A stretch of 64,000 bases of DNA, taken from assembly GCF_004367745.1 (NCBI RefSeq), contig NZ_CP037993.1, positions 186,001 through 250,000 on the forward strand. Reading direction: 5' to 3'. A program made the position numbers and the translations under genes. Shown piece by piece: positions 41,325 through 57,304 of this stretch (position 1 is the first letter of the stretch; every line of letters begins with the position of its first letter). A model generated the notes under the pieces. That model made no database searches. It was given only the letters and a program-made list of their open reading frames with translations, and was not told the DNA's origin. This DNA comes from Herbaspirillum huttiense. GTDB taxonomy: Bacteria > Pseudomonadota > Gammaproteobacteria > Burkholderiales > Burkholderiaceae_D.

Positions 41325-42326
41325 ATGATGGATGCCCTCAGCCGCCTCCTTTCCCTGCATCCGGTGCGTGCCGCGCTGGATATCCGCTGCCGTTTCGGCC
41401 AGCCCTGGAACCTGCCGCATGCGGCCTTGCCAGCGGGCGTGGCGCCTTATCACTTCATCCTGGAGGGCAGGGCACAACTGCAGTTGGCGGAAGGGGAACC
41501 TCTGCTGCTGGAGGCTGGCGACCTGGTGGTGCTCACCCGGGGCGCAGCGCATGATCTCTTCATCGCGCCCGTCGGCGAAGCCATCGCGGCGCGCCCGGGC
41601 GTGACTGCAGCGCCGGTGCAACTGAATGTGAATGATGAGGATGCCGGCGGCGCGCAGCCCCTGTCGGATTTCCTCTGCGGGCAGTTCCATTTCGATGCCC
41701 CGCACTCCAACGCCCTGGTGCAGGCGCTGCCGGAAGTCTTGCTGGTGCGGGGCCAGCAGCTGCCGCAAGGGGATGGCCTGCACACCCTGGCCACCCTGCT
41801 GCGCAACGAGTGCGGGGGCGCCGATGGCCGCGGAGAATTGCGCGCCGGCGCGCAGGCGGTGGTGGCCGGGCTGGCGGCGGCGCTGTTCGGACTGGCCCTG
41901 CGCGCCTGGCTGGCCCAGGGCGGACCGCAGCCGGGTTTGCTGGCGCTGCTGGCCCATCCCGGCCTGCAACCTGCGATGCAGGCCATGCTGGATGCCCCGC
42001 AGCAGGACTGGACGCTGCCTCGGCTGGCAGCGTTGTGCCACATGTCGCGCGCGACCTTCGTGCGGCGCTTCCAGGAGGTCGGCGGCACTACGCCAGGCGA
42101 ACTCCTGCAGCAATTGCGCATGGCGCGTGCCGCGCAGCTATTGAGCTACAGCAAAATGGGCACGGCCCAGATCGGCGAAGCTGTGGGGTATCAGTCCGAA
42201 GCAGCGTTCAACCGGGTATTCAAGAAGTTCAGCGGAATGGGGCCGGGGGCGTACCGGCGCAAGGGCAGGCTGGAGCAGGGACAGGCCCCGGAAACGGGCG
42301 GGCAGGACGCCGGGATCAGCGGATAG
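41325..42326 (+). CDS. AraC family transcriptional regulator with cupin domain
   Basis: A 333-residue regulator: N-terminal cupin sensor (about 10-170, HFILEGRAQLQLAEGEPLLL and GDLVVLTRGAAHDLF) and C-terminal double helix-turn-helix (about 225-315, LAALCHMSRATFVRRFQEV and IGEAVGYQSEAAFNRVFKKF). Divergent from the AhpD-like gene, which it most likely controls. Two adjacent ATGs occur at 41325 and 41328; AAGGA lies just upstream and the second has better spacing. Its 3' end overlaps the convergent Lrp gene by 11 bp. Confidence 0.92.
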   Translation: MMDALSRLLSLHPVRAALDIRCRFGQPWNLPHAALPAGVAPYHFILEGRAQLQLAEGEPLLLEAGDLVVLTRGAAHDLFIAPVGEAIAARPGVTAAPVQLNVNDEDAGGAQPLSDFLCGQFHFDAPHSNALVQALPEVLLVRGQQLPQGDGLHTLATLLRNECGGADGRGELRAGAQAVVAGLAAALFGLALRAWLAQGGPQPGLLALLAHPGLQPAMQAMLDAPQQDWTLPRLAALCHMSRATFVRRFQEVGGTTPGELLQQLRMARAAQLLSYSKMGTAQIGEAVGYQSEAAFNRVFKKFSGMGPGAYRRKGRLEQGQAPETGGQDAGISG

Positions 42327-42780
42327 GCAGGCGGATGGTGTTCTTCACTTCTTCCATTACCGCATAAGTGTGGGTCTCGCGCACACCCTTCAATTGCAGC
42401 AGCGACTTGCCCAGGAATTCACGATAGGCGTTCATGTCCTTGACCCGCGACTTGACCAGGTAATCGAAGCCGCCGGCCACCATGTGGCATTCCATGATCT
42501 CGGGGATGCTCTGCACGCTCTTCTTGAACTCGGCAAAGACATCCGGCGTGGTGCGGTCCAGCACCACCTCGATGAAGACCAGCAAGGAGACATCCAGCAA
42601 TTCCGGATTCAGCTGCGCCGCATAACCCAGGATATAGCCGGCTTCCTGCAGTTTGCGAACCCGCTCCAGGCAAGCGGCCGGCGACAGGTTCACGCGAGCG
42701 GCGAGGTCGACGTTGCTGATGCGGCCGTCGTTTTGCAGCTCCGCCAGAATTTTCTTGCTGATCTTGTCGAGTCCGGCCAT
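42316..42780 (-). CDS. Lrp/AsnC family transcriptional regulator
   Basis: A 154-residue feast/famine regulator: N-terminal helix-turn-helix (ISNVDLAARVNLSPAACLER) and C-terminal RAM domain (ALLVFIEVVLDRTTPDVFAE-like strand-helix pattern, then ECHMVAGGFDYLVKSRV). It is divergent from the livK-lhpHI-livHMGF operon across a 379-bp AT-rich region with inverted repeats. Lrp-type proteins usually sense amino acids, so control by proline or hydroxyproline is plausible. Confidence 0.92.
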   Translation of the reverse strand: MAGLDKISKKILAELQNDGRISNVDLAARVNLSPAACLERVRKLQEAGYILGYAAQLNPELLDVSLLVFIEVVLDRTTPDVFAEFKKSVQSIPEIMECHMVAGGFDYLVKSRVKDMNAYREFLGKSLLQLKGVRETHTYAVMEEVKNTIRLPIR

Positions 42781-43159: not shown

Positions 43160-44296
43160 ATGTTCAAGCGCGTCTCCGGACTCAACATCATCGCCGCCTC
43201 GCTGGCGCTGATCCCTGCTTTCGCCATGGCGCAGGAAACCCAGGTCGTCAAGATCGGTTTCTCCAGCCCGTTGACCGGTCCCCAGGCATCGGCCGGCAAG
43301 GACAACCAGGGCGGCCTGATGATGGCCGTCGAGCGTCTGAATGCGCAACCCATCACCGTGGGCGGCAAGAAGATCAAGTTCGAAGTCCTGGCAGAAGATG
43401 ACCAGGCCGACCCCAAGCAAGGCGTGGCCGTGGCACAGAAGCTGGCTGACCAGGGCGTCAAGGCCATCGTCGGTCCCTACAACTCGGGCGTGACCATTCC
43501 TGCTTCGCGCGTCTACAACGATGCCGGCATCGTGGTGGCCACCGTGGCCTCCAACCCCAAGATCACCCAGCAAGGTTTTGCCACCCTGTTCCGCGTGGCT
43601 GCCAGCGACAGCCAGCTGGGTGGCAAGATGGCCCTGTACGCAGCCAAGGAACTGAAGTTGAAGCGCGTGGCCGTCATCGATGACCGCACCGCCTACGGCC
43701 AGGGCCTGGCCGAGGAATTCGCCAAGGTCGCCAAGGCCAACGGCATCGAAGTCATCAGCAAGGACTTCACCAACGACAAGGCCACCGACTTCACCGCCAT
43801 CCTGACCTCCATCAAGGGCAAGAAGCCCGACGCCGTGTTCCTGGGCGGCTATGCTCCCCAAGGCGGCCCGATCAAGCGCCAGATGAAGCAGCTGGGCATC
43901 GACGTGCCCCTGATGGGCGGCGACGGCATCTGTTCGCCGGAAATGGGTCGCCTGGGTGGCGACGCCATCGGTGAAACCGTCTACTGCACCCAGGGCGGCA
44001 CCATGCTGGACAAGGCCAAGGATGGCAAGGTCTTCGCTGACGACTACCAGAAGAAGTACAGCCGTCCTGCTGAAACCTATGCAGTCTCGTTCTACGATGG
44101 CATGATGCTGATCGCGCAAGCCATGAAGCAGGCCAACTCGGTCGATCCTAAAGCCTTCGGTCCGGCCATGGCCAAGATCAGCTACAAGGGCGTGGCCGGC
44201 CAGTACGACTTCGACGCCAACCACGACCTGAAGCAATCGCCCGTGACCGTCTATCGCTTCAAGGATGGTCTGCCGGTTCCCCTGACCAGCTACTGA
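43160..44296 (+). CDS. livK: ABC transporter substrate-binding protein (LivK type)
   Basis: A 378-residue periplasmic binding protein with a signal peptide (cut after AFAMAQ, about residue 25). It shows the Leu/Ile/Val-binding fold: KIGFSSPLTGPQASAGKDNQ, GPYNSGVTIPASRVYNDAGI, ASDSQLGGKMALYAA and MGGDGICSPEMGRLGGDA. The ATG at 43160 has GAGAGG 11 bp upstream. It leads an operon with the hydroxyproline genes lhpH and lhpI and the liv permease and ATPase genes. The ligand may therefore be trans-3-hydroxy-L-proline or proline instead of a branched-chain amino acid. Confidence 0.92.
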   Translation: MFKRVSGLNIIAASLALIPAFAMAQETQVVKIGFSSPLTGPQASAGKDNQGGLMMAVERLNAQPITVGGKKIKFEVLAEDDQADPKQGVAVAQKLADQGVKAIVGPYNSGVTIPASRVYNDAGIVVATVASNPKITQQGFATLFRVAASDSQLGGKMALYAAKELKLKRVAVIDDRTAYGQGLAEEFAKVAKANGIEVISKDFTNDKATDFTAILTSIKGKKPDAVFLGGYAPQGGPIKRQMKQLGIDVPLMGGDGICSPEMGRLGGDAIGETVYCTQGGTMLDKAKDGKVFADDYQKKYSRPAETYAVSFYDGMMLIAQAMKQANSVDPKAFGPAMAKISYKGVAGQYDFDANHDLKQSPVTVYRFKDGLPVPLTSY

Positions 44297-44501
44297 TCGG
44301 TCCTTTCCCGGCCTGATCCTGCCGCCCGCAGTCGCGGGTGGCGCGCCAGGCCCTGATCCCAGCTCCACATTGCAGTGTCCCGCTTCCCGCCGGTTCCGAC
44401 CGGCCGGGAGCGGCTTGCCGTACCCGCTTGCAGGGCCCATGTCCGGTCCGCAGTGTTACCCTCTGCCCTGGCGGACCCGCAGCATACCCGGAAGGAAGAC
44501 C

Positions 44502-45512
44502 ATGCTCAGCTATACCCGTACCGTCCAGACCATCGATGCCCACACCGGCGGTGAGCCGTTGCGCATCGTGGTCTCGGGCCTGCCCAAGATCCCGGCCGGC
44601 ACCATCCTGGAACAGCGCGCCTGGCTGCGCGAACATCGCGACGACCTCCGCCGCTTCCTGATGAACGAGCCGCGCGGCCATGCCGACATGTATGGTGCGT
44701 ATCTGCTGCCCCCGGTCACGGCTGGTGCCGACTTCGGCGTCATCTTCATCCACAACGAAGGCTACAGCGACATGTGCGGCCACGGCATCATCGCCCTCGG
44801 CAAGGTGTTGGTCGAGATGGGCTACGTCGAACGCACCCAGCCGCAGACCCGCATCTGCTTTGATGCCCCGGCCGGCTTCATCGAAGCCTTCGTCGAGTGG
44901 GATGGCGTGCGCGCCGGCAAGGTCAGCTTCAACAACGTGCCCTCCTTCATCTATCGCCGCGACGTCGAAGTCGAGACGCCCGGGTTTGGCAAGATCACCG
45001 GTGACATCGTCTTCGGTGGTGCCTTCTACTACTACATCAACGCGGCGCAGGCCGGCCTCACCGTCAAGCCTGAACTGGTGCGCCAGCTGATCCAGCTGGG
45101 TGCCGAGACCAAGGCCGCCGTCATGGCCAAGGTCGCCATCGTCCATCCGCTGGAGCCGGGCCTCAACACGCTGTACGGCACCATCATCGACAGCGAACCC
45201 AATTTCCCCGGCGCGGACCAGTCCAACGTCTGCATCTTCGCTGACCGCGAAGTGGACCGCTCGCCTACCGGCACCGGTACCTCGGGCCGCGCCGCCCAGC
45301 TGTTCCTGCGCGGACAATTGGCGCTGAACCAGAACTACGTCAACGGCAGCATCGTCGGCAGCAACTTCGGCGTGCGCGTGACTGCTGCCACCAAGGTGGG
45401 CGACTTCGATGGCGCGCTCACCGAGGTGAGCGGCCATGCCCACATCATGAGTACCAACCAGTGGGTGCTGGAAGAGTCCGATCCCTTCCCGACCGGTTTC
45501 TTCCTGCGCTGA
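44502..45512 (+). CDS. lhpH: trans-3-hydroxy-L-proline dehydratase (proline racemase family)
   Basis: A 336-residue member of the proline racemase family. The first active-site residue is C92 in DMCGHGIIALGK; the second position is Thr (T256) in DRSPTGTGTSGRAA. Cys/Cys is found in proline racemase and 4-hydroxyproline epimerase, whereas Cys/Thr marks trans-3-hydroxy-L-proline dehydratase, which makes 1-pyrroline-2-carboxylate with loss of water. The next gene encodes the enzyme that uses that product, which supports the call. ATG at 44502, with AAGGAAG just before it. Confidence 0.88.
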   Translation: MLSYTRTVQTIDAHTGGEPLRIVVSGLPKIPAGTILEQRAWLREHRDDLRRFLMNEPRGHADMYGAYLLPPVTAGADFGVIFIHNEGYSDMCGHGIIALGKVLVEMGYVERTQPQTRICFDAPAGFIEAFVEWDGVRAGKVSFNNVPSFIYRRDVEVETPGFGKITGDIVFGGAFYYYINAAQAGLTVKPELVRQLIQLGAETKAAVMAKVAIVHPLEPGLNTLYGTIIDSEPNFPGADQSNVCIFADREVDRSPTGTGTSGRAAQLFLRGQLALNQNYVNGSIVGSNFGVRVTAATKVGDFDGALTEVSGHAHIMSTNQWVLEESDPFPTGFFLR

Positions 45513-45530
45513 CTTTCCCACAGGATTCCC

Positions 45531-46469
45531 ATGCACATCCTCAACTCCCTCCAGACCGCGCAGGCAATGCCTTATTCCGCGCTGGTCGATGCCCTCGCAC
45601 GCGCCGCGCAGGAACTGGCCAGCGGTGCCATCCGCGCACCGGAACGCCAGGTCGTTCCCATCGATGCCAACAGCGTCTTGCTGGGCATGCCGGCCATTGC
45701 CGAGGATCTTTCGGTGACCAAGCTCATCACCGTGCATGGCGACAATGCCCGCCATCAGCTGCCGGCGATTCAGGGGGAGGTGATCGCCTTCGAGACCGAT
45801 ACCGGCCGCCGCCTGGCCTTGATGGATGGCCCGACCGTCACGGCGCGCCGCACCGCAGCCATGAGTCTGCTGGGCATTCGCACGCTGTTGCCGCGCACGC
45901 CGCAATCGGCGCTGCTGATCGGTACCGGCGCGCAGGCGGCAGCGCATGCCGATGCACTGGCGGAGGTGTTTGGTGTCCGTCAGTTCTGGGTGGCCGCGCG
46001 TGACCTCGCGCGTACCCAGGCTTTCTGCCAGGCCATCAGCGAACGCCATCCGCAAGTGGTGGCCAGTCCGCTCCCGGCACAGATGTTGCAACAGGAGTTG
46101 CCACGCACTGATGTGGTGATTGCCTTGACTACGTCGCGCGTGGCCGTGATTCCCGAACAGATCGCGGCCGATACGCTGGCCATCGGCGTCGGTGCCTTCA
46201 AGCCGGACATGGTGGAGTTCCCGGCCAGCCTGCTGCATGCACGCCGCATCGTGGTCGATGACCTGGCCGGCGCGCATCACGAAGCAGGCGACCTGATCCA
46301 GGCCAAGGTGGACTGGGCGGGCGTGGTCGGCATCGGCGATGTGCTGGCCGGCAAGACGGCCTTGAACACGCTCGACAGCGCGGGGGCGCTGCCGGTGTTC
46401 AAGACCGTGGGCCAGGCTGCGTGGGACCTGGCGGCAGCGCGCGTGATGCGCACCACACTGGGGATCTGA
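45531..46469 (+). CDS. lhpI: 1-pyrroline-2-carboxylate reductase (ornithine cyclodeaminase family)
   Basis: A 312-residue member of the ornithine cyclodeaminase/mu-crystallin family with the NAD(P) motif LLIGTGAQAAAHADALAEVF and family blocks ITVHGDNARHQLPAIQGEV, DGPTVTARRTAAMSLLGIRT and TTSRVAVIP. LhpI-type members reduce 1-pyrroline-2-carboxylate to L-proline with NADPH. Its position 18 bp after lhpH, whose product is that compound, favours this activity over ornithine cyclodeaminase. The L-proline can then be used by the PutA encoded at 57.3 kb. Confidence 0.88.
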   Translation: MHILNSLQTAQAMPYSALVDALARAAQELASGAIRAPERQVVPIDANSVLLGMPAIAEDLSVTKLITVHGDNARHQLPAIQGEVIAFETDTGRRLALMDGPTVTARRTAAMSLLGIRTLLPRTPQSALLIGTGAQAAAHADALAEVFGVRQFWVAARDLARTQAFCQAISERHPQVVASPLPAQMLQQELPRTDVVIALTTSRVAVIPEQIAADTLAIGVGAFKPDMVEFPASLLHARRIVVDDLAGAHHEAGDLIQAKVDWAGVVGIGDVLAGKTALNTLDSAGALPVFKTVGQAAWDLAAARVMRTTLGI

Positions 46470-46601
46470 AAATTGCGCGTGCATGCGCGCTTAATTTGAT
46501 AAATAATTTACGCTTTTTTCGCGAACGCTCGTGCGTTTGCGGTTTCCTTGCAGTTTCCTGACGTTTCACAACAATCATCCTCCTGAAGGAGACACCGTTT
46601 C
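46470..46601 (+). other. Intercistronic region with hairpin between lhpI and livH
   Basis: 132 bp. It holds GCGAACGC-TCGT-GCGTTTGC (46522-46541), an 8-bp stem with one G-T pair, downstream of a T-rich run, and an imperfect inverted repeat around GCGTGCATGCGCGC (46474-46490). It could be a processing site, a partial terminator or an internal promoter region that sets different levels for enzymes and transporter. Confidence 0.5.
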
Positions 46602-47531
46602 ATGGACATTTTCATCCAGCAGATCATCAACGGATTGGTGCTAGGCAGCATGTACGCACTGATCGCCCTGGGCTACACCATGGTGTACGGGGTGCTGAAC
46701 CTGATCAACTTTGCCCACGGCGACATCCTGATGGTGGGCGCCATGGTCGGCCTGTCGATCCTCAAATTGGTGCAGCAGGTCGCGCCTGACCTGCCTGGCA
46801 TCGTCAAGCTGATCATCGCCATCGTCGGAGCCATTCCGGTGTGCGTGATCGTCAGCCTGCTGATCGAACGCATCGCTTACCGTCCGCTGCGCAACGCGCC
46901 GCGCCTGGCGCCGCTGATCACCGCCATCGGCGTGTCGATCCTGCTGCAGACCTTCGCCATGATGATCTGGGGCCGCAGCCCGCTGCCGTTCCCGCAGATC
47001 ATGCCCTCGACCCCGGTCAACATCGCCGGTGCCCTGATTTCGCCGACCCAGATCATGCTGCTCATCCTGGCCCTGGCCGCGATGATCGGCCTGGTGCTGA
47101 TCGTGGAGAAGACCAAGATGGGCCGCGCCATGCGTGCCACTGCCGAGAACCCGCGCATCGCCGGTTTGATGGGCGTGGATGCCAACCGCGTCATCATCGT
47201 CACCTTCGCCATCGGCGCGGCACTGGCCGCGATTGCCGGGGTGATGTGGGCCGCCAACTATTCCACTGCGCAATTCGCCATGGGCTTCGTGCCGGGCCTG
47301 AAGGCCTTCTCGGCGGCCGTGCTGGGCGGCATCGGCAACATCTACGGTGCCATGCTGGGCGGCATCCTGCTGGGCCTGATCGAGAGTCTGGGTGCCGGTT
47401 ACATCGGCGACCTGACCGGCAACTTCCTGGGCAGCAATTATCAGGACATCTTCGCCTTCATCGTGCTGATCATCGTGTTGACCTTGCGTCCGTCCGGGAT
47501 CATGGGTGAGCGTGTGGCGGATCGGGCCTGA
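46602..47531 (+). CDS. livH: Branched-chain amino acid-type ABC permease LivH
   Basis: A 309-residue inner-membrane permease with about eight helices. Family signatures: QQIINGLVLGSMYALIALGY then TMVYGVLNLINFAHGDILM, and the EAA-like region RATAENPRIAGLMGVDANRV. The ATG follows GAAGGAGAC. It forms the transmembrane channel with LivM, energised by LivG and LivF, in a five-part transporter with the livK product. Confidence 0.95.
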   Translation: MDIFIQQIINGLVLGSMYALIALGYTMVYGVLNLINFAHGDILMVGAMVGLSILKLVQQVAPDLPGIVKLIIAIVGAIPVCVIVSLLIERIAYRPLRNAPRLAPLITAIGVSILLQTFAMMIWGRSPLPFPQIMPSTPVNIAGALISPTQIMLLILALAAMIGLVLIVEKTKMGRAMRATAENPRIAGLMGVDANRVIIVTFAIGAALAAIAGVMWAANYSTAQFAMGFVPGLKAFSAAVLGGIGNIYGAMLGGILLGLIESLGAGYIGDLTGNFLGSNYQDIFAFIVLIIVLTLRPSGIMGERVADRA

Positions 47532-47603
47532 GTTTTTAAGATTTAAAACCTTAAAAACTTAAAAACAGAAACTTAGAAACTTAAGAAATCGGAAGAGAAC
47601 ACT
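47532..47603 (+). repeat. Short AT-rich direct repeats between livH and livM
   Basis: A 72-bp spacer rich in A and T with repeats of CTTAAAAA (two copies in a row) and AGAAACTT (two copies), quite unlike the GC-rich surroundings. It may have arisen by slippage and should be an unstructured, A-rich translation-enhancing leader for livM. Confidence 0.55.
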
Positions 47604-48818
47604 ATGGCTCTCATGACCTTCGACATGAAGCGCAACCCCCAGCAGGCGCGGTTCAGCCTGCTGGCGCTGTTGGCGCTGATGATCATCTTCCCCATGATCG
47701 CCCAGCATTTCGGCAATTCGTGGGTGCGCATCATGGATATGGCGCTGCTCTACATCATGCTGGCCCTCGGCCTGAACGTGGTGGTGGGTTTTGCCGGCCT
47801 GCTGGACCTGGGCTACATCGCCTTCTATGCCATCGGTGCCTACACCGCTGGTTTGCTGGCCTCGCCGCAGTTCGCGCAGGTGATCGAATCCTTCATCAAC
47901 ACCTATCCGGCCATCGGCAATTTCCTGGTCTGGCTGTGCGGTCCGCAGATCGTGCAGAATGGCATCCACTTGTCGCTGTGGCTGATCGTGCCGATCTCGG
48001 GCGTGCTGGCGGCGCTCTTCGGTGCGCTCCTGGGTGCGCCGACCCTGAAGCTGCGCGGTGACTACCTGGCCATCGTGACGCTGGGCTTCGGCGAGATCAT
48101 CCGTATCTTCATGAACAACCTGAACGCGCCGGTGAACATCACCAACGGTCCGCAGGGCATCAACCTGATCGACCCGATCCGCGTGTTCGGTGTGTCACTG
48201 GCCGGTGAACCGGGTTCGGGTTCGATGCTGAAGATCTTCGGCATGAACCTGCCGTCGGTGAACGCGTACTACTACCTGTTCCTGGTGCTGTGCATCTTCG
48301 TGATCTTCTTCTCGAGCCGCCTGCAGGATTCGCGCCTGGGCCGTGCCTGGGTGGCGATCCGTGAAGATGAAATCGCCGCCAAGGCGATGGGCATCAACAC
48401 CCGCAACGTCAAGCTGCTGGCCTTCGCCATGGGCGCGTCCTTCGGTGGCGTGGCCGGTGCCATGTTCGGTGCCTTCCAGGGTTTTGTTTCGCCGGAATCC
48501 TTCTCCCTGACCGAATCCATCGCCGTGCTGGCCATGGTGGTGCTGGGCGGCATTGGCCACATTCCGGGCGTGGTGCTGGGTGGCGTGATCCTGGCCGCGC
48601 TGCCGGAAGTGCTGCGCCACGTGGTGGAGCCGCTGCAGATGGCCATCTTCGGCAAGGTGTGGATCGATGCGGAAGTGCTGCGCCAGCTGCTCTACGGCCT
48701 GGCCATGGTGATCATCATGCTGACCCGTCCGGCTGGCCTGTGGCCCTCGCCGCGCCATGAAGACCGTCCCGAAGTGGACCACACCAAAGTCGGTACCACC
48801 GGCGAAGTCAAAGCTTAA
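47604..48818 (+). CDS. livM: Branched-chain amino acid-type ABC permease LivM
   Basis: A 404-residue inner-membrane permease. Signatures: LALGLNVVVGFAGLLDLGYI, LKLRGDYLAIVTLGFGEIIR and the EAA-like loop AIREDEIAAKAMGINTRNVK followed by AFAMGASFGGVAGAMFGA. The C-terminal tail (RHEDRPEVDHTKVGTTGEV) is polar and cytoplasmic. It pairs with LivH. Confidence 0.95.
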   Translation: MALMTFDMKRNPQQARFSLLALLALMIIFPMIAQHFGNSWVRIMDMALLYIMLALGLNVVVGFAGLLDLGYIAFYAIGAYTAGLLASPQFAQVIESFINTYPAIGNFLVWLCGPQIVQNGIHLSLWLIVPISGVLAALFGALLGAPTLKLRGDYLAIVTLGFGEIIRIFMNNLNAPVNITNGPQGINLIDPIRVFGVSLAGEPGSGSMLKIFGMNLPSVNAYYYLFLVLCIFVIFFSSRLQDSRLGRAWVAIREDEIAAKAMGINTRNVKLLAFAMGASFGGVAGAMFGAFQGFVSPESFSLTESIAVLAMVVLGGIGHIPGVVLGGVILAALPEVLRHVVEPLQMAIFGKVWIDAEVLRQLLYGLAMVIIMLTRPAGLWPSPRHEDRPEVDHTKVGTTGEVKA

Positions 48819-48833
48819 TCTGGAGCACAGAAC

Positions 48834-49601
48834 ATGACACAAACACTGCTCAAGATCCGTGACGTCAGCAAGCGTTTCGGCGGCCTGCAAGCCTTGAATG
48901 GCGTGGGCATCACCATCGAGCGCGGCCAGATCTATGGCCTGATCGGCCCCAACGGTGCCGGCAAGACCACGTTCTTCAACGTCATCACGGGCCTGTACCA
49001 ACCCGATACCGGCAGCTTCGAACTGGACGGCAAGCCCTATTCGCCGAGCGCCCCGCACGAAGTGGCCAAGGCCGGTATCGCCCGTACCTTCCAGAACATT
49101 CGTCTGTTCGGTGAAATGACCGTGCTGGAAAACGTGATGGTCGGTTGCCACGTGCGCACCAAGCAAAATGTCTTCGGTGCCGTATTCCGCCACAAGGCAG
49201 CACGTGACGAAGAAGCGGCGATCCGCGCCAAGTCGCAGCAACTGCTGGACTTCGTGGGCATCGGCCAGTTCGCCAAGCGCACGGCGCGCCACCTGTCGTA
49301 TGGCGATCAGCGCCGTCTGGAAATCGCCCGCGCCCTGGCGACCGATCCGCAACTGCTGGCCCTGGACGAACCGGCGGCCGGCATGAACGCGACCGAGAAG
49401 CTGGCCTTGCGCGAGCTGCTGGTGAAGATCCAGGCCGAAGGTAAAACCATCCTGCTGATCGAACACGACGTGAAGCTGATGATGGGCCTGTGCAACCGCA
49501 TCACGGTGCTGGACTATGGCAAGCCGATTGCCGAAGGGGTGCCGGCCGACGTGCAGAAGAACCCGGCGGTGATCGAGGCCTACCTCGGTGCAGGACATTA
49601 A
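48834..49601 (+). CDS. livG: Branched-chain amino acid-type ABC ATPase LivG
   Basis: A 255-residue ATPase: Walker A GPNGAGKTTFF, signature LSYGDQRRLEIARAL (LSYGDQ variant common to LivG), Walker B LLALDEPAAGMN and H-loop LLIEHDVKLMM. It begins 15 bp after livM and ends 15 bp before livF. Confidence 0.96.
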   Translation: MTQTLLKIRDVSKRFGGLQALNGVGITIERGQIYGLIGPNGAGKTTFFNVITGLYQPDTGSFELDGKPYSPSAPHEVAKAGIARTFQNIRLFGEMTVLENVMVGCHVRTKQNVFGAVFRHKAARDEEAAIRAKSQQLLDFVGIGQFAKRTARHLSYGDQRRLEIARALATDPQLLALDEPAAGMNATEKLALRELLVKIQAEGKTILLIEHDVKLMMGLCNRITVLDYGKPIAEGVPADVQKNPAVIEAYLGAGH

Positions 49602-49616
49602 GCGAGACCACAGAAC

Positions 49617-50342
49617 ATGACAACGAACATTCTCAAAGTCGACCAACTGAGCGTGGCCTATGGCGGCATCAAGGCCGTCAAGGGCATCAGCCTGGAAGTC
49701 AACGACGGTGAACTGGTCACCCTGATCGGCGCCAATGGCGCCGGCAAGACCACCACCCTCAAAGCCATCACCGGCACGCTGCCCAGCAGCAAGGTCGACG
49801 GCCACGTGTATTACATGGGCAATCCGTTGAAGGGCAAGAAGTCCTTCGAGCTGGTCAAGGACAAGCTGGCGATGGTGCCGGAAGGCCGTGGCGTCTTCAC
49901 GCGCATGAGCATCCAGGAAAACCTGTTGATGGGCGCCTACACCAGCAATGACAAGGGCCAGATCCAGGCCGACGTCGACCGCTGGTTCGAGGTCTTCCCG
50001 CGCCTGAAGGAACGTGCGGCGCAGATGGCGGGGACCTTGTCGGGTGGCGAGCAGCAGATGCTGGCGATGGCGCGCGCGCTGATGAGCCATCCCAAGCTGC
50101 TGTTGCTGGATGAGCCCTCGATGGGTCTGTCGCCGATCATGGTGGAGAAGATCTTTGAAGTGATCCGCAATGTGTCGGCACAGGGCATCACCATCCTGCT
50201 GGTGGAACAGAACGCCAAGCTGGCACTGCAGGCGGCGCATCGCGGCTACGTGATGGAGTCGGGCCTGATCACCATGGAAGGGCAGGCGCAGCAGATGCTG
50301 GATGATCCGCGGGTGAAGGCAGCTTATCTGGGTGAGGGTTGA
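49617..50342 (+). CDS. livF: Branched-chain amino acid-type ABC ATPase LivF
   Basis: A 241-residue ATPase: Walker A GANGAGKTTTLKAI, signature LSGGEQQMLAMARALM, Walker B LLLLDEPSMGLSP and H-loop region LLVEQNAKLAL (His replaced by Gln, usual for LivF). Last gene of the operon; a strong terminator follows. Confidence 0.96.
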   Translation: MTTNILKVDQLSVAYGGIKAVKGISLEVNDGELVTLIGANGAGKTTTLKAITGTLPSSKVDGHVYYMGNPLKGKKSFELVKDKLAMVPEGRGVFTRMSIQENLLMGAYTSNDKGQIQADVDRWFEVFPRLKERAAQMAGTLSGGEQQMLAMARALMSHPKLLLLDEPSMGLSPIMVEKIFEVIRNVSAQGITILLVEQNAKLALQAAHRGYVMESGLITMEGQAQQMLDDPRVKAAYLGEG

Positions 50343-50392
50343 GTCGATCGTTTAATTCGTAAATGATATAAATCATTTGTGATGGATCGAAG

Positions 50393-50423
50393 AAAAAAGC
50401 GCAGCCGAGGCTGCGCTTTTTTT
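50393..50423 (+). terminator. Rho-independent terminator after livF
   Basis: AAAAAAGCGCAGC-CGAG-GCTGCGCTTTTTTT, a stem of about 13 bp with a 4-nt loop. The A-run on the left arm makes it work on both strands, so it can also end the convergent immunity operon. Confidence 0.92.
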
Positions 50424-50481
50424 CGTATAAATCTGGTACTTCGTTTGGATGGGATCACGTATATACAGTGATGAGCAATCG

Positions 50482-51222
50482 CTATCGGCCAAACTCAATA
50501 CTCTTCAGCGCTCGCATGAAGTCCCGATAATGCAGTTCGTTCGGTTCCCTGGGATTACGGTCCCGGGCAAGGCAGGTGGCGAACTCCAGGCTGTTTTTCT
50601 GATTGCCGATCAGGGCGATGAAACATCGTTGTGGCCGTTTCGGTGCCGCATCGCCCATCTCCTTTCTGGTCGGCTCCGTGCGCCGCGTCCAGAGATAGCC
50701 GGTCCAGTCCTTGCCGCGGATCTTCTCCCGCTTGATTTCATCTTGTTGGGTGGCCCAGAGAAAATCCACACCGTACTCGTTGAGCTGTATCGCATCATCT
50801 TCCTGATCCAGGTGGTCAGTACGGGCAGGGACGGCGATCCAGTCGGAGATGCCCGAAGCGAGGTAGTCCTGCGTGGATTGTCCCGAGAGAAATCCTTCCG
50901 TATTCGCCAGCAGTCCGGGGCCGGGAAAGTCTTCTGGATAATGGCCCATCTGAAGTACCTTGGCACCAGGATAGTGTGCAAGCGCAGTGCATGTGATGAT
51001 GGGTGAGCTACTCGGTGGACGCATCGAAAAATGGCAGGTTTCCTTGATCCTGCGTTGCTTGAATTTGAAAAGAGTAGCTGCGTTAGCGGCGGCCGCATGG
51101 ACGTGACAGCTTGACGCGAGACACAGCATCAGGAGCGAAATCAGTATCTTCACCGATGAAGATTTTTCGAGGGATCCGGGCGACACGTTTGGTTCTGTGT
51201 TCATGGAAGGGGAAAGTCTCAT
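50482..51222 (-). CDS. Exported T6SS immunity protein paralogue 2
   Basis: A 246-residue protein with an N-terminal export signal (KILISLLMLCLASSCHVHAA, with a possible lipobox-like LASSC). The C-terminal part (KDWTGYLWTRRTEPT, RCFIALIGNQKNSLEFATCL and HYRDFMRALKSIEF) is clearly related to the neighbouring immunity protein at 51219-51902. Its start overlaps that gene's stop as ATGA, so the two are translated together. A periplasmic location fits an effector that attacks the cell wall. No family known to me covers the pair. Confidence 0.75.
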   Translation of the reverse strand: MRLSPSMNTEPNVSPGSLEKSSSVKILISLLMLCLASSCHVHAAAANAATLFKFKQRRIKETCHFSMRPPSSSPIITCTALAHYPGAKVLQMGHYPEDFPGPGLLANTEGFLSGQSTQDYLASGISDWIAVPARTDHLDQEDDAIQLNEYGVDFLWATQQDEIKREKIRGKDWTGYLWTRRTEPTRKEMGDAAPKRPQRCFIALIGNQKNSLEFATCLARDRNPREPNELHYRDFMRALKSIEFGR

Positions 51223-51902
51223 TGACTATCGAAGGTGATGCTGTAGATCATCTTCATGAAGTCGCCCACATCGAACTCTGCCGGGTCAGTTTTTTTTCCG
51301 TTACGCGGCAAGCAGATGAGATCCGAGTACAGCGTCACGGTCGTATTCCCGATGATCAGGAGAAAGCATTCCTTGTCGATTGCATCGTAGGGACAATCCC
51401 GTACAAGGTCGCTCTTTTTCAGTCTGGATGATCTTCGCCAAAGGTAGCCTCGCCAGTTGTTGGCCGCGATCTTTTCTACCTGAACCTGTCTCATGCTCTT
51501 TGCGCACAGGTCCGTCACTAATTGTTCGGTGAGATGCAGTTCTTCGCCAGGGATTGATTCGCCGGTATCGTCATTTCTCTTGAGCTTTCCTTTTGCGCCG
51601 GATCCAACAAGCTTTTCTAAAGAACGATTGGTGATTCCCAAAGTAATCTGGCGAGCAAAGTCGTTATGCTCAAACTGATTCACGAAGTAGCTGATGCTCA
51701 TCGCCCGATAGGCATCGGTCAATTGCCGATCCCCACTGCAGCTAACCCCGTCAATCGTATCGACCAGAGTGATTGCGAACCCACAACGATTCTGCATTTC
51801 TACATCCAGATAGATAGGCTCTTGGTCGACCGCTGCTGCGCCAGCGGAGAATGATATTGCTGCAAGCAGGGAGATTTTCGCGGCCGTGATAATCCGGCTC
51901 AT
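51219..51902 (-). CDS. Exported T6SS immunity protein paralogue 1
   Basis: A 227-residue protein with a Sec signal peptide (MSRIITAAKISLLAAISFSA, cut after AAA). Shared blocks with the downstream paralogue: NWRGYLWRRSS and ECFLLIIGNTTVTLYSDLIC, and FDVGDFMKMIYSITFDS. Conserved cysteines in both suggest disulphides. It starts on the last base of the effector stop codon (TAATG), the arrangement expected for an effector-immunity pair. The sequence is AT-richer than the flanking liv genes. Immunity function is inferred from position and export. Confidence 0.78.
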   Translation of the reverse strand: MSRIITAAKISLLAAISFSAGAAAVDQEPIYLDVEMQNRCGFAITLVDTIDGVSCSGDRQLTDAYRAMSISYFVNQFEHNDFARQITLGITNRSLEKLVGSGAKGKLKRNDDTGESIPGEELHLTEQLVTDLCAKSMRQVQVEKIAANNWRGYLWRRSSRLKKSDLVRDCPYDAIDKECFLLIIGNTTVTLYSDLICLPRNGKKTDPAEFDVGDFMKMIYSITFDSQ

Positions 51903-54175
51903 TATCTGTCCCTTCGCTGGGCTTGGACCTTCGTATTTTTCGTTTGTTTATAGTCTCCGAGTAGCTGCTCAAGATATGACAAATAGGCGAACCGTATTGC
52001 TAAATGCATGTTGCCACCGTTCACAGCCTTTGTCACAAGCACACAACTCTCTTTTGAGAAGCCTTTGTCCGCATGACGATTGATGTTGATCTTGATGTAG
52101 GACTTTGATACCCAATACTTCAACGCCGAATCAATCGTGTTATACGAGACGACAGCAATCAAGTCATTATGTTTTTCAGTCGTAAAGTCCATGCCGCGGT
52201 ACTGCCCGTACTCGCTGTAGTTGGCTCGACCTGTTAGTTGAATCAACCCGCGCCCTTTAAATCGGTTTCCGTCGCCTGGTTGTGTATTGCCTAATTCCTT
52301 CGCCTTTTCTTTTACGACTTCGGGTCGATGCTTTTTATAGGCTTCGAGTTCGTACAGCGTCTTGGTACCTTTGATATACACGAAGTGCAGCTTCCAAGCG
52401 GTACTGGATTTGTTGAGATAGTCTTGCTCGCATTCCTCTGGGGTAATGACTTCGTACATCGTTCTAAAATATCGCTCATTTCCTTTCTCGATGGCGGAAA
52501 AGAACAACTCTGTCTCTTGCAGAACGTGACTAAAAAAATATGATGTACGTGTCGGTGACGCTGCTAGCAGATACTTTCGGGAAAGTAGATTCCAGTTTTT
52601 GTGGATATCTGCAGGCATCGTTCCCTTGTCCTTGATGGTGCCTGCAGTAAGCCTGGCCAGTGCCTCGTCCCAAGCCAGACCATAAGTAATATTGTCGACT
52701 TTTATCGCTCGTGGAATTGTTTGCACCATTTCATCAAGGCACATCCATCCATTTCTTCTAAAGATAAGTAAAAACTCACGCGGATTGAATCGCCATTTCG
52801 CCATCAATACCTCTTTGTGATCGATGCAAAGCGCCCTCGCATGCTTTTTGAATTGCTCAAATCCCTCGGCATTCAATCGCGCCGGCACACCATTCTCACT
52901 GCGTGTCAGCCATGACCATCGCGCCTCCAGCCTGGCCGCATCCCACTCACTTTCCACCCTGCAGATCAAGCGCGAAAGCCGCTGACGTGCAGTCTGGTCA
53001 TCCAGTGCCTTCAAGGCTTCCTGTTCCGTCACCTTGCCGTCGCCATCCAGATCCAGCCAGCGGGAGACGGCGTTGGCTGCGCATCGGCTATCCACGGATC
53101 GGGAATGCTCTTCTTCCCTGACGAGTTGCCAGTGCTGCCAGGGAGGGAAGTCGGCATCGCTGTATTTACGGATTCCCGCGCCATTCAGATTGACCCAGCC
53201 TTTTCCCGTTGGTAGCGCAATCTCCCGCCAGTGCGGTACATCGGACGGTACCAGCGGATCAGGCCCCACGATCCTGCCGAAGCGCAGCAGTTCATAAACT
53301 GCGCTGGGCGCCGGACGCTTGCCTTCGGGATAGGCCAGGCTGATCTTGTTGGCACTGGCGTAGAGGAGATATTCCGCTTCCGGCAAGCGGAGGGATTGCC
53401 CTATCCGTTCCCCATCCGCACGATAGGTCGTGATGAGCAGGTCGCCACGCTGTGCGGGCGCGCCGTCGCCTTCGGCATAACGCAGTCCGACGATCAACAC
53501 CTCCTTGCTCAACTGCAGCGTTTCAGTGTCCGGCGGACTCTGATTGCGCTTTGGTTCTTTGGAATAGAGCCGTGTGCCCGCCGGTATCAGAAAATACATC
53601 TCACCGAAGAGCACATCGGTGCGTCCATCGCGGCTCAGGTCCAGCTTGTTGTCGCTGCGTCCGATCAATTTTCCAAGGTTGACGTCATCGCAAGCGATCT
53701 CGAAGTGGATCAGTTTGCGTGAGCTGTCATGGCACTGGCCGGCCATCCCCAGCAGATCCTTGCGGTAGACTTTTTTGCCTGCCTTCATGCCAGGTTCCAC
53801 TTGGCTCAGATGCATGTAGAGAGAATAGAAGACGATCTGGGTGGCCGCCGCACCCTCACCGATGTCGGTGTCATGGCGAATTACGACGCAACCATCATCG
53901 GTCCATCCCAGATAGTTCAGGGCATGTTCACGATTGTCGTTCTTTGGCGTGGCGCTACGACTGAAGATGACCGTGCCATCGGAAATGGCATGGACCCATT
54001 CCGTGCCCTTGGCGTGAGCTGGAGCCTGCACATGCAGGCCGCCATGCCAGTTGAGATCACGGCTGACAGGAAACAAGCCCTCGCCAGCCGGTGAATCGGG
54101 CAAGAGCGTGTTCAGCCATGCTGCATCAGAGAGATTGCCAGGGCGGGGAGGCAGGAAGGGAGGGCTAAGCAGCAT
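51902..54175 (-). CDS. Putative T6SS peptidoglycan-degrading effector (M23-like plus GH19-like)
   Basis: A 757-residue protein. Residues 40-165 resemble an M23/LytM domain (WHGGLHVQAP, YMHLS, LIHFEIA), but the usual Asp ligand is His48 and the first His of HxH is Leu, so zinc catalysis is doubtful. D375-E386 (DLDGDGKVTEQE) is a perfect EF-hand calcium loop. Residues 540-745 form a GH19 chitinase/lysozyme-like domain with the catalytic Glu in VLQETELFFS (E554) and the typical FKGRGLIQLTGRANYSEYGQ block. No signal peptide, so it needs T6SS export. It sits 6 bp after vgrG and overlaps its immunity gene. The C-terminal half is AT-rich. Confidence 0.85.
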   Translation of the reverse strand: MLLSPPFLPPRPGNLSDAAWLNTLLPDSPAGEGLFPVSRDLNWHGGLHVQAPAHAKGTEWVHAISDGTVIFSRSATPKNDNREHALNYLGWTDDGCVVIRHDTDIGEGAAATQIVFYSLYMHLSQVEPGMKAGKKVYRKDLLGMAGQCHDSSRKLIHFEIACDDVNLGKLIGRSDNKLDLSRDGRTDVLFGEMYFLIPAGTRLYSKEPKRNQSPPDTETLQLSKEVLIVGLRYAEGDGAPAQRGDLLITTYRADGERIGQSLRLPEAEYLLYASANKISLAYPEGKRPAPSAVYELLRFGRIVGPDPLVPSDVPHWREIALPTGKGWVNLNGAGIRKYSDADFPPWQHWQLVREEEHSRSVDSRCAANAVSRWLDLDGDGKVTEQEALKALDDQTARQRLSRLICRVESEWDAARLEARWSWLTRSENGVPARLNAEGFEQFKKHARALCIDHKEVLMAKWRFNPREFLLIFRRNGWMCLDEMVQTIPRAIKVDNITYGLAWDEALARLTAGTIKDKGTMPADIHKNWNLLSRKYLLAASPTRTSYFFSHVLQETELFFSAIEKGNERYFRTMYEVITPEECEQDYLNKSSTAWKLHFVYIKGTKTLYELEAYKKHRPEVVKEKAKELGNTQPGDGNRFKGRGLIQLTGRANYSEYGQYRGMDFTTEKHNDLIAVVSYNTIDSALKYWVSKSYIKININRHADKGFSKESCVLVTKAVNGGNMHLAIRFAYLSYLEQLLGDYKQTKNTKVQAQRRDR

Positions 54176-54181
54176 GGTGTC

Positions 54182-56944
54182 TCACTTTGAAAACGGTGAC
54201 CGGTTGTTTTCCTGAAGAGGGGCTTTGGGTAAAAGAGGGAGTTCGAACTTCATGCGTGCGGCTCCCTCCAGCAGCTTTTGCCCCGCATGCACCGTCAGCG
54301 TCCCGGGACAGAGAACCGTAATATTCCCCCCATCAATGACGATGCCGGCCCCACCCGCCGTGGCCAGCGTGATCTTGCGCGCCGCCGCCCAGGTCACGCC
54401 GGCATTGGCACTGACCACCTGCAACTGGTCACGCGCCTGCACGGTCAAGCTCCCCGCCTGCGCCTGCACATCGATGTCGCGCTGTGCGGCAATCATCTGC
54501 AAGCCGATGCCCTTCTCACCTGCAGCCGTAGCCCCGGCCAGCACACCGATGGCCTGCTGCGTACGCAACCGCAATTGCTGCCCGCTGACGTGCTGCGCAT
54601 CCTGGCCGGCAATGAGGCTCACGCTCCCGCCGTTGGCCATCTGCAGATGCTGGCCCGCCACCACGCCCAGCCCTTCCTTCGCAGCGACCTGGATCAGAGG
54701 CTTGCTGCTGGCAGGCAGGTCCTCCTGGGCGATCTCGGCTTGCGCGGCGATGGCCTTGTTGAGCGCATCAAGCCCTTCTGCCATGCCTACGGTGCGATGC
54801 GTGCGCGCCGCTTCATCGAAGGTCTTGCGTGTCTGTGCAGCCTGCCGCACCATGGCCCGCTGCCCCGAGTTGTCCCCGGCCGGATCACGATGGCCGGCGC
54901 GATGCGCCACCAGATAGCTGGAAAACAGAAGACCGCGCCCCGCACGCATCACGCCGTAGGCATCGGTGCGCAATTCCACGCCCGTGCCACGGAAGCTGCC
55001 GCGATAATTGTCGGCACTGTGAATCAGGTGCCCGAGATTGAGCTCGCTACCGGCCTGGGTGCTCTTGAGCTGGATGCGGCCACGGCCGTCGCTGTCATCG
55101 AAGAGCAGCTGGTTGTACCCCCAGCCACCGAACTCCTTGGAGCGGATGCCCCATTGCGCGGCAGGATTGCGGTGCCCATCCAGATCCGCACTGGCGCCAT
55201 GCCAGGTCGGCGCATGGCCGCCCGCCAGATTGCCCTGGCCGCTGGCGGCCGTATCGCTGGCCGATTGGAACACTTGGGTTTTTGCAGAAAACTTCACTTC
55301 GCCACCGGGCGTCGGCGGCTCGCCCCCCTCCCCACGGCCGTTGTAGAGGGCCGCAAGCACAATCGGCCGCTCCAGGTCGTTATCGAGGAACTGCACCAGA
55401 ACCTCCTGCCCGATGCGCGGCAGGAATTGCATCCCCATGCCCGGCCCGGCGCAGCGTTGGCCTACGCGCACCCAGCAGGTGGCCGCCGCATCCTCATGCC
55501 GCCCTTGCCAGTGGAAACGGATACGGATCCGTCCCAGGCGGTCGCAGCAGATTTCGTCGGGGCCATTGGCTTCGGTCTCGCCCCGATAGCCGACCACGAT
55601 GGCACTCTGGCTGCCCTGCGCCATGGCATGAGGACGACGCGTCAGCCCCGTGCCATCGCCCAGGTCAGGCCGCCAGACAATATCGGCGCGAATCGCTTCG
55701 AAGAGCTTGGCATGGCCCATGCGGCGTGCGAGATCGATCAGGCTGCGGTCCGGTGCCTGTATCTCGCCCACCGTGGCGACCTTGAGGCAGGCATGGAGGG
55801 CGTCTTCCAGCAAGATCGGCAGAGGACCGAACAACTCGGCCAGCGCCGCTTGCGTATCGGCTGGCAGGTTGTTGAAGCCCACGCTCAGTACCGCCAGCAC
55901 GGCGTATTCCTGCTCCTTGCCCGCCAGCGGCCCTTGTCTCAGGCTAAAGCGCGCTCCGGCCCGCAAGCTGCGCACCGTGCTGCGTCCAAGCCAGCGCTTG
56001 TTGCTGGCCTCGGCGGCTTCCATCATCAGGCGTGCATGGCGGTCGGCGGCGTCCTTGTCATCGGTCACCGGGCCTGCGCTGTCATAGCTTTCCAGCCTGG
56101 GCGCGTCGCGCCCGCCGAAGTCGTGATGCGTGGGGATGCTGGCGGTGATGGCTTGTTTGTTCCGGTAGTCATACGACAGCAGCGTGCAGCTGGCCGCCTG
56201 CAGGCTGCGACAGGCCGCCAGGGCCTGGATGCCATCCTGCTGATCCAGCTCCCTGGCACCCTGGAAGCGGATGCCATCATGGGCCGCGCTGGTGGGATCT
56301 TCCGGAAAGGCGCTGCGCGCCGTGCTGTCGGCAAAGATCACCAGGCGATGGCCTTGCGGACTGGGCGCATGTTCTTCGATGCGCCACGACAGTCCTTCTC
56401 CGGCCAGCAGACGGCTGATGAAATCGAGATGCGTCTGCCGGTACTGCACGGTGTAGCTGCGTGGCGGCACCCGAGCCAGATACGCCAGCGCATCAGCCGA
56501 CCAGTGCCAGTCCGCGTGTTGCGGGAATTCGCGGAAGACGTCTTCGACCACTTCGATCAGGGTCTTGTCCTGCCAGACCCGGCTGGTGCTGGCCTGCGAC
56601 AGCAGCCAAGGCCAGGGCGCCATGCGCAGCCGATAGCGGCCGAAGCCGCCGTCGCCACCCAGCTTGGCCACTTCATGGATCAGGCCGGTCGAGCGGCACA
56701 CGCCACCTTCCGCAAGCAGGCTGTTCAGCGTGGCCAGGCTGCCCAGCAGGGACCGGGCTGCCACCTCCGCATCCAGGCTCAGCACGATCAGCTCGGTGGC
56801 ACCGACCGCATGCAGGGACTCTACGGCCGCCCATGCTTCGACCAGAAAGCGGTCCTCGGGCTGGCCGGCGATCTCCAGACGATAGAGGCGCGTTGCCGCC
56901 GAGAATCGCAACAAACGAGAGAGCAACTGACTGGCGTGATCCAT
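54182..56944 (-). CDS. vgrG: T6SS spike protein VgrG (with DUF2345)
   Basis: A 920-residue VgrG. gp27-like domain (about 1-380, with SYTVQYRQTHLDFISRLLAG and EGLSWRIEEH), gp5-like OB domain (about 440-530, EICCDRLGRIRIRFHWQGRH and WVRVGQRCAGPGMGMQFLPR), and a DUF2345 beta-helix needle extension (about 730-890, KEGLGVVAGQHLQMANGGSV). It carries the downstream effector, as shown by the 6-bp spacing. No enzymatic C-terminal domain is visible. The main T6SS structural genes are not in the window. Confidence 0.95.
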   Translation of the reverse strand: MDHASQLLSRLLRFSAATRLYRLEIAGQPEDRFLVEAWAAVESLHAVGATELIVLSLDAEVAARSLLGSLATLNSLLAEGGVCRSTGLIHEVAKLGGDGGFGRYRLRMAPWPWLLSQASTSRVWQDKTLIEVVEDVFREFPQHADWHWSADALAYLARVPPRSYTVQYRQTHLDFISRLLAGEGLSWRIEEHAPSPQGHRLVIFADSTARSAFPEDPTSAAHDGIRFQGARELDQQDGIQALAACRSLQAASCTLLSYDYRNKQAITASIPTHHDFGGRDAPRLESYDSAGPVTDDKDAADRHARLMMEAAEASNKRWLGRSTVRSLRAGARFSLRQGPLAGKEQEYAVLAVLSVGFNNLPADTQAALAELFGPLPILLEDALHACLKVATVGEIQAPDRSLIDLARRMGHAKLFEAIRADIVWRPDLGDGTGLTRRPHAMAQGSQSAIVVGYRGETEANGPDEICCDRLGRIRIRFHWQGRHEDAAATCWVRVGQRCAGPGMGMQFLPRIGQEVLVQFLDNDLERPIVLAALYNGRGEGGEPPTPGGEVKFSAKTQVFQSASDTAASGQGNLAGGHAPTWHGASADLDGHRNPAAQWGIRSKEFGGWGYNQLLFDDSDGRGRIQLKSTQAGSELNLGHLIHSADNYRGSFRGTGVELRTDAYGVMRAGRGLLFSSYLVAHRAGHRDPAGDNSGQRAMVRQAAQTRKTFDEAARTHRTVGMAEGLDALNKAIAAQAEIAQEDLPASSKPLIQVAAKEGLGVVAGQHLQMANGGSVSLIAGQDAQHVSGQQLRLRTQQAIGVLAGATAAGEKGIGLQMIAAQRDIDVQAQAGSLTVQARDQLQVVSANAGVTWAAARKITLATAGGAGIVIDGGNITVLCPGTLTVHAGQKLLEGAARMKFELPLLPKAPLQENNRSPFSK

Positions 56945-57304
56945 GACAAGCCCCAGAACAATGACGGGCCGTCATTCTTGTTCGGCAACTTTGTACTTCC
57001 TGAAAAACCACGAAAATCCCGGGCAAAGCTCGAAAGGCACCGAAGAATGCTTCGAATAAATTGGGATTTGCCACACCAGCAGGCTCACGGGCCGGGTTCA
57101 GGCCGGGTCGGACCGTTCATCGCCCCGGAAGCCGCGACAGTACTGCGAAAGGCGCCATGGTGGCGTAGTTGTGGAAAATTAAAAATCGTATAAATGAAAT
57201 AGTCCGAATTAAATATTGGAGCGATGCATGAAATACAGAATTAATATTGGCATCAAGCACATAGAATCCGGTTGCCCGTTTCCATCCCATTTCGACTCCA
57301 GACC
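56945..57304. other. Control region between vgrG and putA
   Basis: 360 bp. Near vgrG there is a 17-bp inverted repeat AATGACG-GGC-CGTCATT (56960-56976). Near putA (57175-57260) is a strongly AT-rich stretch with TATAAA-like elements, suitable for an Lrp- or PutR-type control site. No ribosome binding site for putA is obvious. Confidence 0.55.
56960..56976. promoter_or_regulatory. Candidate operator before vgrG
   Basis: Perfect 7-bp arms AATGACG / CGTCATT around GGC, 16-32 bp upstream of the vgrG start. It overlaps the place expected for ribosome binding or promoter sequences; the role is unknown. Confidence 0.45.

Follow-up and report, generated by a model that had tools for sequence, protein, structure and literature searches.

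A LivK-type binding protein linked to hydroxyproline genes and a duplicated LivHMGF core evolving in concert in Herbaspirillum

Introduction

What does a branched-chain-type importer bring into the cell when two enzymes of trans-3-hydroxy-L-proline breakdown are encoded in the middle of its operon? This question is raised by the livK-dehydratase-reductase-livHMGF genes of Herbaspirillum huttiense, which lie in a stretch of 64,000 nucleotides (contig NZ_CP037993.1, positions 186,001 to 250,000; the whole stretch is called the window hereafter, and coordinates are counted from its first letter) of a genome assembled as one contig of 5.69 Mb. With a substrate-binding protein (SBP) of family PF13458, two PF02653 (BPD_transp_2) permeases and two ATPases, the operon encodes an ABC importer of the HAAT type. 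The original prediction, made from the sequence alone, held that the whole transporter is dedicated to trans-3-hydroxy-L-proline or a related imino acid. We found that LivHMGF is a duplicate of a core that has no adjoining SBP gene and that its two copies evolve in concert, and that LivK is repeatedly encoded beside (hydroxy)proline genes; on balance, LivK is probably a binding protein for ligands of the proline/hydroxyproline type that supplies a shared core. The predicted livK, dehydratase, reductase and livHMGF genes are all present and all on the plus strand, in the following arrangement:

42316-42780, minus strand: Lrp/AsnC-family regulator (PF01037/PF13412), divergent from livK
43160-44296, plus strand: LivK-like HAAT SBP of a clade linked to (hydroxy)proline genes (PF13458, 206.7 bits; fails NF011933)
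44502-45512, plus strand: dehydratase, trans-3-hydroxy-L-proline type by sequence (NF045511, 554.1 bits; Cys92/Thr256)
45531-46469, plus strand: Delta1-pyrroline-2-carboxylate reductase, OCD/mu-crystallin family (NF005603, 343.2 bits)
46470-46601, plus strand: intergenic stretch from the reductase gene to livH, with hairpins, nearly all outside the duplicated block
46599-50421, plus strand: duplicated block from the livH start codon to the terminator, with its second copy behind ispH at 1284.8 kb
46602-47531, plus strand: LivH permease (PF02653)
47604-48818, plus strand: LivM permease (PF02653)
48834-49601, plus strand: LivG ATPase (PF00005/PF12399)
49617-50342, plus strand: LivF ATPase (PF00005)
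50393-50424, plus strand: terminator-like hairpin and T tract after livF, recognized by eye and absent from the program's terminator list
57272-61003, plus strand: PutA, proline to glutamate (NF008772, 1871.9 bits, cut-off 1750)

Results

A binding protein unlike LivJ and LivK

LivK scores 214.3 bits with the Leu/Ile/Val SBP model NF011933 (LivJ/LivK), for which the cut-off is 477, yet another SBP of the same genome (L212:6353-7474) passes this model with 613.6 bits. The latter carries LivJ-type residues and heads a complete liv operon of its own at 1.88 Mb, to whose LivHMGF the window LivHMGF is just 42-49% identical. We compared the columns 18, 77-79, 102, 226 and 276 (E. coli LivK numbering), which we take to line the ligand pocket. 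The window protein has A18, Y77-N78-S79, S102, D226 and Y276, with a one-residue deletion before V-A-S; LivJ has Y18, L-C-S, T102, E226 and F276, and E. coli LivK has W18, E226 and Y276. The LivJ/LivK pocket (aromatic residue 18, LCS77-79, T102, E226) is thus mostly missing from the window protein, which retains S79, Y150 and Y202 as well as Y276 as in E. coli LivK. LivK is therefore very probably not a Leu/Ile/Val SBP, and a leucine transporter was rejected on the NF011933 score and these residues; the suspicion that the operon is wrongly annotated as a Leu/Ile/Val importer held up.

Among solved SBPs, the GABA receptor Atu2422 comes closest in sequence (1.3e-54); its corresponding residues are F18, F-N-S, T102, D226 and Y276. 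An AF2 model of LivK (pLDDT 91.6) aligned with VIA-align has the HAAT SBP fold, a comparison that does not tell ligands apart, and a structure search returned Atu2422 with alanine (Z 48.4, 35% identity) and a Thermotoga leucine-binding protein (Z 48.0) at about the same level. The likeness of LivK to an Atu2422-type GABA/Ala/Pro SBP is one of sequence and predicted fold only.

The two enzymes

The dehydratase scores 554.1 bits with the NCBIfam equivalog NF045511 (cut-off 540) and carries the predicted catalytic residues Cys92 and Thr256, a Cys/Thr pair instead of Cys/Cys; judged by these features, it is of the trans-3-hydroxy-L-proline type, as had been proposed. Close relatives of the dehydratase gene occur in other members of Herbaspirillum, H. 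aquaticum (99%) being one of them. The lhpI call for the reductase stands at the level of the family (NF005603, 343.2 bits against a cut-off of 266) and falls short of the narrower LhpI model NF045512 (Pyr2C/Pip2C reductase), with 315 of the 400 bits needed. Gene names depend on the author: NCBIfam calls the reductase LhpI, and in the accessible text of PMC5144071 the dehydratase is LhpG, the reductase LhpH or LhpK, and LhpI an aconitase X. The window genome holds a second racemase-superfamily gene (C1:5229272-5230273; L031, L215), whose best NCBIfam match is T3LHypDht with 421 bits, below the cut-off of 550.

Linkage of LivK to (hydroxy)proline genes

The dehydratase occurs at no less than 76% identity in 35 of 195 genomes of the family, and LivK lies within 10 kb of 28 of these 35 close orthologues, a count that used the 96 best LivK matches of a longer list (at least 423 bits) and left out four short racemase fragments (two in G009, one each in G151:C15 and G102). 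Within Herbaspirillum (34 genomes searched), LivK at 83% identity or more stands beside the dehydratase in all 27 genomes that have the enzyme, one of these genes being partial. As this arrangement recurs in 27 of 27 Herbaspirillum genomes and also in other genera, the adjacency of livK and the dehydratase gene is not due to chance. Collimonas and Glaciimonas carry livK-dehydratase-reductase with no livHMGF in the locus, and in the four such genomes that were examined at both loci (G028, G054, G112, G130) LivH is matched once at E 1e-80, behind ispH. Among the 60 named loci L083-L142, a HAAT SBP is found at most 3 kb from the dehydratase in 13, and 12 of these 13 have no LivH or LivM in the sequence available.

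Upstream of livK, most Collimonas loci carry another ABC set, which consists of an NMT1-type SBP, a PF00528 permease and, where the stretch reaches, an ATPase, together with a family-3 SBP that is above the Pfam cut-off in L094 and just below it in L227. The conserved set directly precedes livK in L094, L095, L098, L101-L103, L105 and L227; it is absent from L106 (Collimonas) and from L093 and L108 (Glaciimonas).

The linkage extends to neighbouring pathways. Ten LivK homologues (57-62% identical) lie within 8 kb of epimerase-type genes. One of these loci, L216, has the make-up of a 4-hydroxyproline-type cluster and includes an orphan LivK; its epimerase passes NF010577 (472.7 against a cut-off of 442); this is the sole L216 gene to pass the cut-off of its model, and FAD oxidoreductases, a DHDPS-family gene, a GntR regulator and an aldehyde dehydrogenase were called there at family level. 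For the remaining nine loci, the assignment rests on similarity and, in some of them, on gene lists as well. Beyond the family, 399 genomes of the order were drawn, and 16 non-family genomes carry 19 racemase-superfamily genes at 1e-60, which are 33-58% identical to the window's, so that some of them may not be dehydratases. Nine of these 19 genes, in nine of the 16 genomes, have an orphan HAAT SBP no more than 2.5 kb away; no LivH or LivM was found in the 16-17 kb around these nine loci, and four of them hold a distant ABC-ATPase match (27-31%). No SBP match turned up in the remaining seven genomes, of which three were checked over 16 kb and four within flanks of 1.5 kb only. Given how densely SBP genes lie in the window genome, such proximity has a nominal probability of about 1e-9 by genomes and 1e-8 by genes, figures that treat the loci as independent, which they are not. 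t3HypD-like genes also have HAAT permease/ATPase sets at distances of up to about 10 kb in three Deinococcota MAGs (metagenome-assembled genomes; L119, L124, L138) and in Rhizobiales (L136), with an SBP match in three of the four, a possible independent link between HAAT transporters and hydroxyproline.

In a tree of SBPs, the window LivK groups with SBPs linked to 3-hydroxyproline, 4-hydroxyproline or D-amino-acid-dehydrogenase genes; the orphan paralogues of the same genome (L022, L023) and the LivJ-type SBPs fall outside this group. Node support for this clade is 0.877 with the Paraburkholderia SBP L126 and 0.986 without it, and the clade also includes orphan LivKs that have no neighbours of these kinds. 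The SBPs with a 4-hydroxyproline link fall into two groups apart from each other, so that this link probably arose more than once. A sister clade (62-63% identical) lies directly behind a D-amino-acid-dehydrogenase-family gene (L225:7832-10322, L226:6254-8900), and no liv permease match was seen in L188 and L200, which overlap these loci. A further, fast-evolving LivK paralogue (42-52%) sits between a TonB-receptor gene and lrp in other Herbaspirillum genomes (L069, L071-L075, L077, L078 and L082); no match to it was found at this place in the window's nearest relatives, such as L063 and L064.

Since the link of LivK to (hydroxy)proline enzymes is conserved, the ligand would be an imino acid, in agreement with the original prediction. 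The substrate cannot be narrowed to trans-3-hydroxyproline, because sister LivKs lie near 4-hydroxyproline-epimerase-type or D-amino-acid-dehydrogenase-family genes and because Atu2422 was solved with alanine among others.

Three Herbaspirillum genomes, G205 (L174), G214 (L173) and G215 (L171), carry Lrp-LivK-livHMGF and have no dehydratase match. Their LivK is 60-63% identical to that of the window and has E226 and F276 as in LivJ; no livH was found within about 1.5 kb of ispH, the stretch available. This shift of pocket residues where the enzymes are missing is a suggestive natural experiment, in which the three genomes are one clade and perhaps one event (support of their tree placement 0.294 and 0.629).

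The LivHMGF core is a duplicate

The window genome encodes a second LivH, 100% identical to the first. A block of 3823 bp that begins 3 bases ahead of the livH ATG and extends to the terminator downstream of livF is repeated behind ispH; the two blocks align without gaps at 98.2% DNA identity, their four proteins are 100% identical, and the terminator-like hairpin closes both copies. Upstream of the two livH genes the sequences look unrelated. The order fkpB-ispH-livHMGF is constant in 22 ispH-liv loci, of which 11 come from 11 genomes outside Herbaspirillum (all that were examined there), and 27 SBP queries against these 22 loci gave no match to an SBP gene.

At E 1e-80, LivH is matched in 166 of the 195 family genomes. 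Among the 34 Herbaspirillum genomes, 11 have two full-length LivH genes, one has two truncated copies (G212), 16 have one match and six have none, numbers for which assembly gaps may in part account in the latter two groups. In 16 of 20 dehydratase loci of named Herbaspirillum-type records (L063-L082), the contig ends at most 1.3 kb after the reductase gene, as would be expected if assemblers stop at a near-identical repeat.

The predicted dedication of the whole transporter to one substrate was rejected on these grounds, LivHMGF being a homogenised copy of an SBP-less core. Only LivK can then carry specificity, which must lie there.

The two copies evolve in concert

We compared the DNA of both copies in nine of the 11 Herbaspirillum genomes with two full-length LivH genes (G101 and G163, with copies near contig ends, were left out). 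Within a genome, the copies are 98.29-99.92% identical over about 1209 codons, with no amino-acid difference in seven genomes and two differences in two; between species, the same locus is 83.8-95.1% identical. Both copies of each genome pair up in a FastTree tree in nine of nine cases, each with support 1.000, and across 36 genome pairs 13926 sites are concerted and 15 locus-specific. The flanking genes diverge normally, with 70-94% (reductase) and 85-98% (IspH) protein identity to the window genome. The two livHMGF copies thus evolve in concert.

Fresh, independent duplications in each species, with no gene conversion, would likewise cluster the copies by species. Such a history is very improbable, as all nine genomes agree in the two positions of the copies and in the genes that flank them, which would take nine separate duplications into one spot, and as the similar stretch begins 1-3 bases before the livH ATG in all six pairs measured. 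One ancestral duplication followed, presumably, by gene conversion is the simplest reading.

Regulator, transcription signals and neighbouring genes

The Lrp gene noted in front of these genes is indeed their neighbour, but it is transcribed from the minus strand, away from livK. With 218.7 bits the protein stays below NF008370, the E. coli-type Lrp equivalog (cut-off 233), and PF01037 still places it in the Lrp/AsnC family, which has 12 matches in the window genome. Its identity is 95-100% in those dehydratase-bearing Herbaspirillum loci that extend to lrp and 86-88% in four loci from genomes without dehydratase. Orphan LivK-type SBPs repeatedly adjoin an Lrp/AsnC-family gene, as in the window (L213:6939-8796, L185, L202). 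A promoter scan gave no site where 2.0 were expected, and eight terminator-like sites came from the scan, near the 5.9 expected. The hairpins that separate the reductase gene from livH show no conservation from one species to another. We infer both Lrp control of the operon and its co-transcription.

PutA, proposed to finish the pathway, is a real gene; as its start lies about 6.9 kb further downstream, with VgrG-type genes of the minus strand in between, it is not part of the operon. The intervening minus-strand genes (50482-56944) include VgrG (54182-56944), an M23 peptidase protein beside it (51902-54175; GH19 match below the cut-off) and two proteins without a Pfam match, and probably form a type VI effector cluster. 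Elsewhere in the window, a 326-aa gene is present in four tandem copies (9181-13335, period 1058 bp) whose proteins are 84-92% identical; the first and last copies, the two that were scanned, match the type VI immunity family TsiV.

Discussion

We propose that LivK would capture L-proline and/or hydroxyproline, trans-3-hydroxy-L-proline among them, dock on LivHMGF and hand over its ligand. The dehydratase and the reductase would turn trans-3-hydroxyproline into L-proline, which PutA would oxidise to glutamate. LivHMGF would be the second copy of a general SBP-less HAAT core behind ispH that was copied behind livK-dehydratase-reductase in Herbaspirillum, after which both copies were kept near-identical; because of this near-identity, either copy can probably serve LivK and other orphan SBPs. 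A wider picture, which we offer tentatively and which falls a little short of probable, is that of a hub with spokes: Burkholderiales would maintain a single LivHMGF core without an SBP of its own, located behind ispH in this family, as a common engine for orphan SBPs, several of which are encoded with the catabolic genes for their ligand (3-/4-hydroxyproline, D-amino acids). Herbaspirillum would have copied this engine into its 3-hydroxyproline operon, and gene conversion would keep both copies identical because each must fit every SBP.

Several observations weigh against our proposal. Two full-length LivH copies are present in a minority of the Herbaspirillum genomes (11 of 34), and the hairpins between the reductase gene and livH may limit read-through. 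Of the family's 84 racemase-superfamily genes, 46 lack a LivK within 10 kb. In loci of the Noviherbaspirillum type, the dehydratase, in some together with the reductase, has no adjacent SBP, the LivK of G100 lying 2.8 kb off. The NMT1-type ABC set precedes livK in seven of the eight named Collimonas loci that have livK by the dehydratase, and again in L159, L161, L163 and L227; another importer could serve the pathway or act as partner there. The structure search did not discriminate between the alanine-bound Atu2422 and a leucine-binding protein, and the A18/Y77/D226/Y276 pocket is common to orphan LivKs near which no hydroxyproline gene was found.

Another explanation would be a LivK that mainly binds L-proline, with D-alanine or a small neutral amino acid, so that hydroxyproline is a minor passenger and the enzymes salvage accidental entry. 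Atu2422 was solved with alanine and, as the F77A mutant, with leucine, and reportedly with proline, and the sister LivK clade of L225 and L226 follows a D-amino-acid-dehydrogenase-family gene. We nevertheless regard this explanation as unlikely, because it makes less clear why SBPs are placed time and again by dehydratase or epimerase genes without LivHM permeases. More improbable still is an ordinary branched-chain or general amino-acid SBP into whose liv operon the enzyme pair was inserted by chance. The annotation family and the three genomes with Lrp-LivK-livHMGF and no dehydratase would speak for it, but LivK misses the model that the other operon of the genome passes, the livK-enzyme link occurs without livHMGF in other genera, and LivK itself differs where the enzymes are missing. 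Our preferred reading thus remains a LivK for proline/hydroxyproline-type ligands that feeds a shared core.

A proline substrate may have support of another kind. GapMind and the Fitness Browser reportedly list HSERO_RS00870 with RS00885-RS00900 of H. seropedicae as an L-proline/D-alanine ABC transporter, a listing that our searches did not confirm. The enzyme pair would account for the skipped HSERO tags, and the gene number would fit the position of LivK in G201, at 180.6 kb. If the listing is right, the proline substrate is already genetically supported, and what is new lies in the link to hydroxyproline, in a core without an SBP and in its concerted evolution. Our literature search, which lay outside most subscription papers, found no paper on this transporter; for proline, the claim that no HAAT importer for such a substrate has been described may be wrong in view of that listing. 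No HSERO locus tag appears in the accessible main text of PMC9007349.

In fold and subunit set, the window operon resembles LivJ/LivK-LivHMGF of E. coli, where two SBPs, LivJ and LivK, share one LivHMGF core. It differs in that the ispH core has no adjoining SBP gene, that the window LivK stays below the cut-off of the LivJ/LivK model and has few of its pocket residues, and that the core is duplicated and homogenised in Herbaspirillum. Compared by sequence alignment with Atu2422 of Agrobacterium (PDB 3ip5-3ipc), the window LivK keeps Asn78, Ser79, Asp226 and Tyr276 and has Ala for Phe18, Tyr for Phe77, Ser for Thr102 and Tyr for Leu202.

HypMNPQ of Sinorhizobium meliloti, which we take to be a polar-amino-acid-type (PAAT) transporter and thus a member of another family, differs from the window system in that it is not an SBP with a shared core. 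According to the available text of PMC5343134, HypMNPQ (ABC) imports hydroxyproline, is encoded with the hyp utilization genes and is one of the known or predicted hydroxyproline transporters, together with HypT (MFS) and HypABC (TRAP). The available parts of Zhao et al. 2014 (PMC4113996) describe gene pairs of t3HypD and Delta1-Pyr2C reductase, the same two enzymes and pathway as in the window, and mention ABC and TRAP genes near t3HypD genes; the transport systems are stated there not to be conserved and were left out of the analysis, and the orphan-SBP pattern is not described in these parts. Putative ABC-type L-hydroxyproline transporter genes in such clusters are also mentioned in PMC5144071, as far as its text is available.

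HAAT transporters are reflexively annotated as leucine importers, and our comparison points instead to an SBP clade of (hydroxy)proline type. It suggests that such importers are modular: the binding protein would move together with the catabolic operon, while its translocator may be encoded elsewhere, so that uptake may be encoded even by an operon with no HAAT permease genes of its own. The duplicated core offers a clear example of concerted evolution within an ABC transporter, and with it the question arises whether the fit to many SBPs is the driving force. Plant-associated Herbaspirillum would gain hydroxyproline from the cell-wall proteins of plants.

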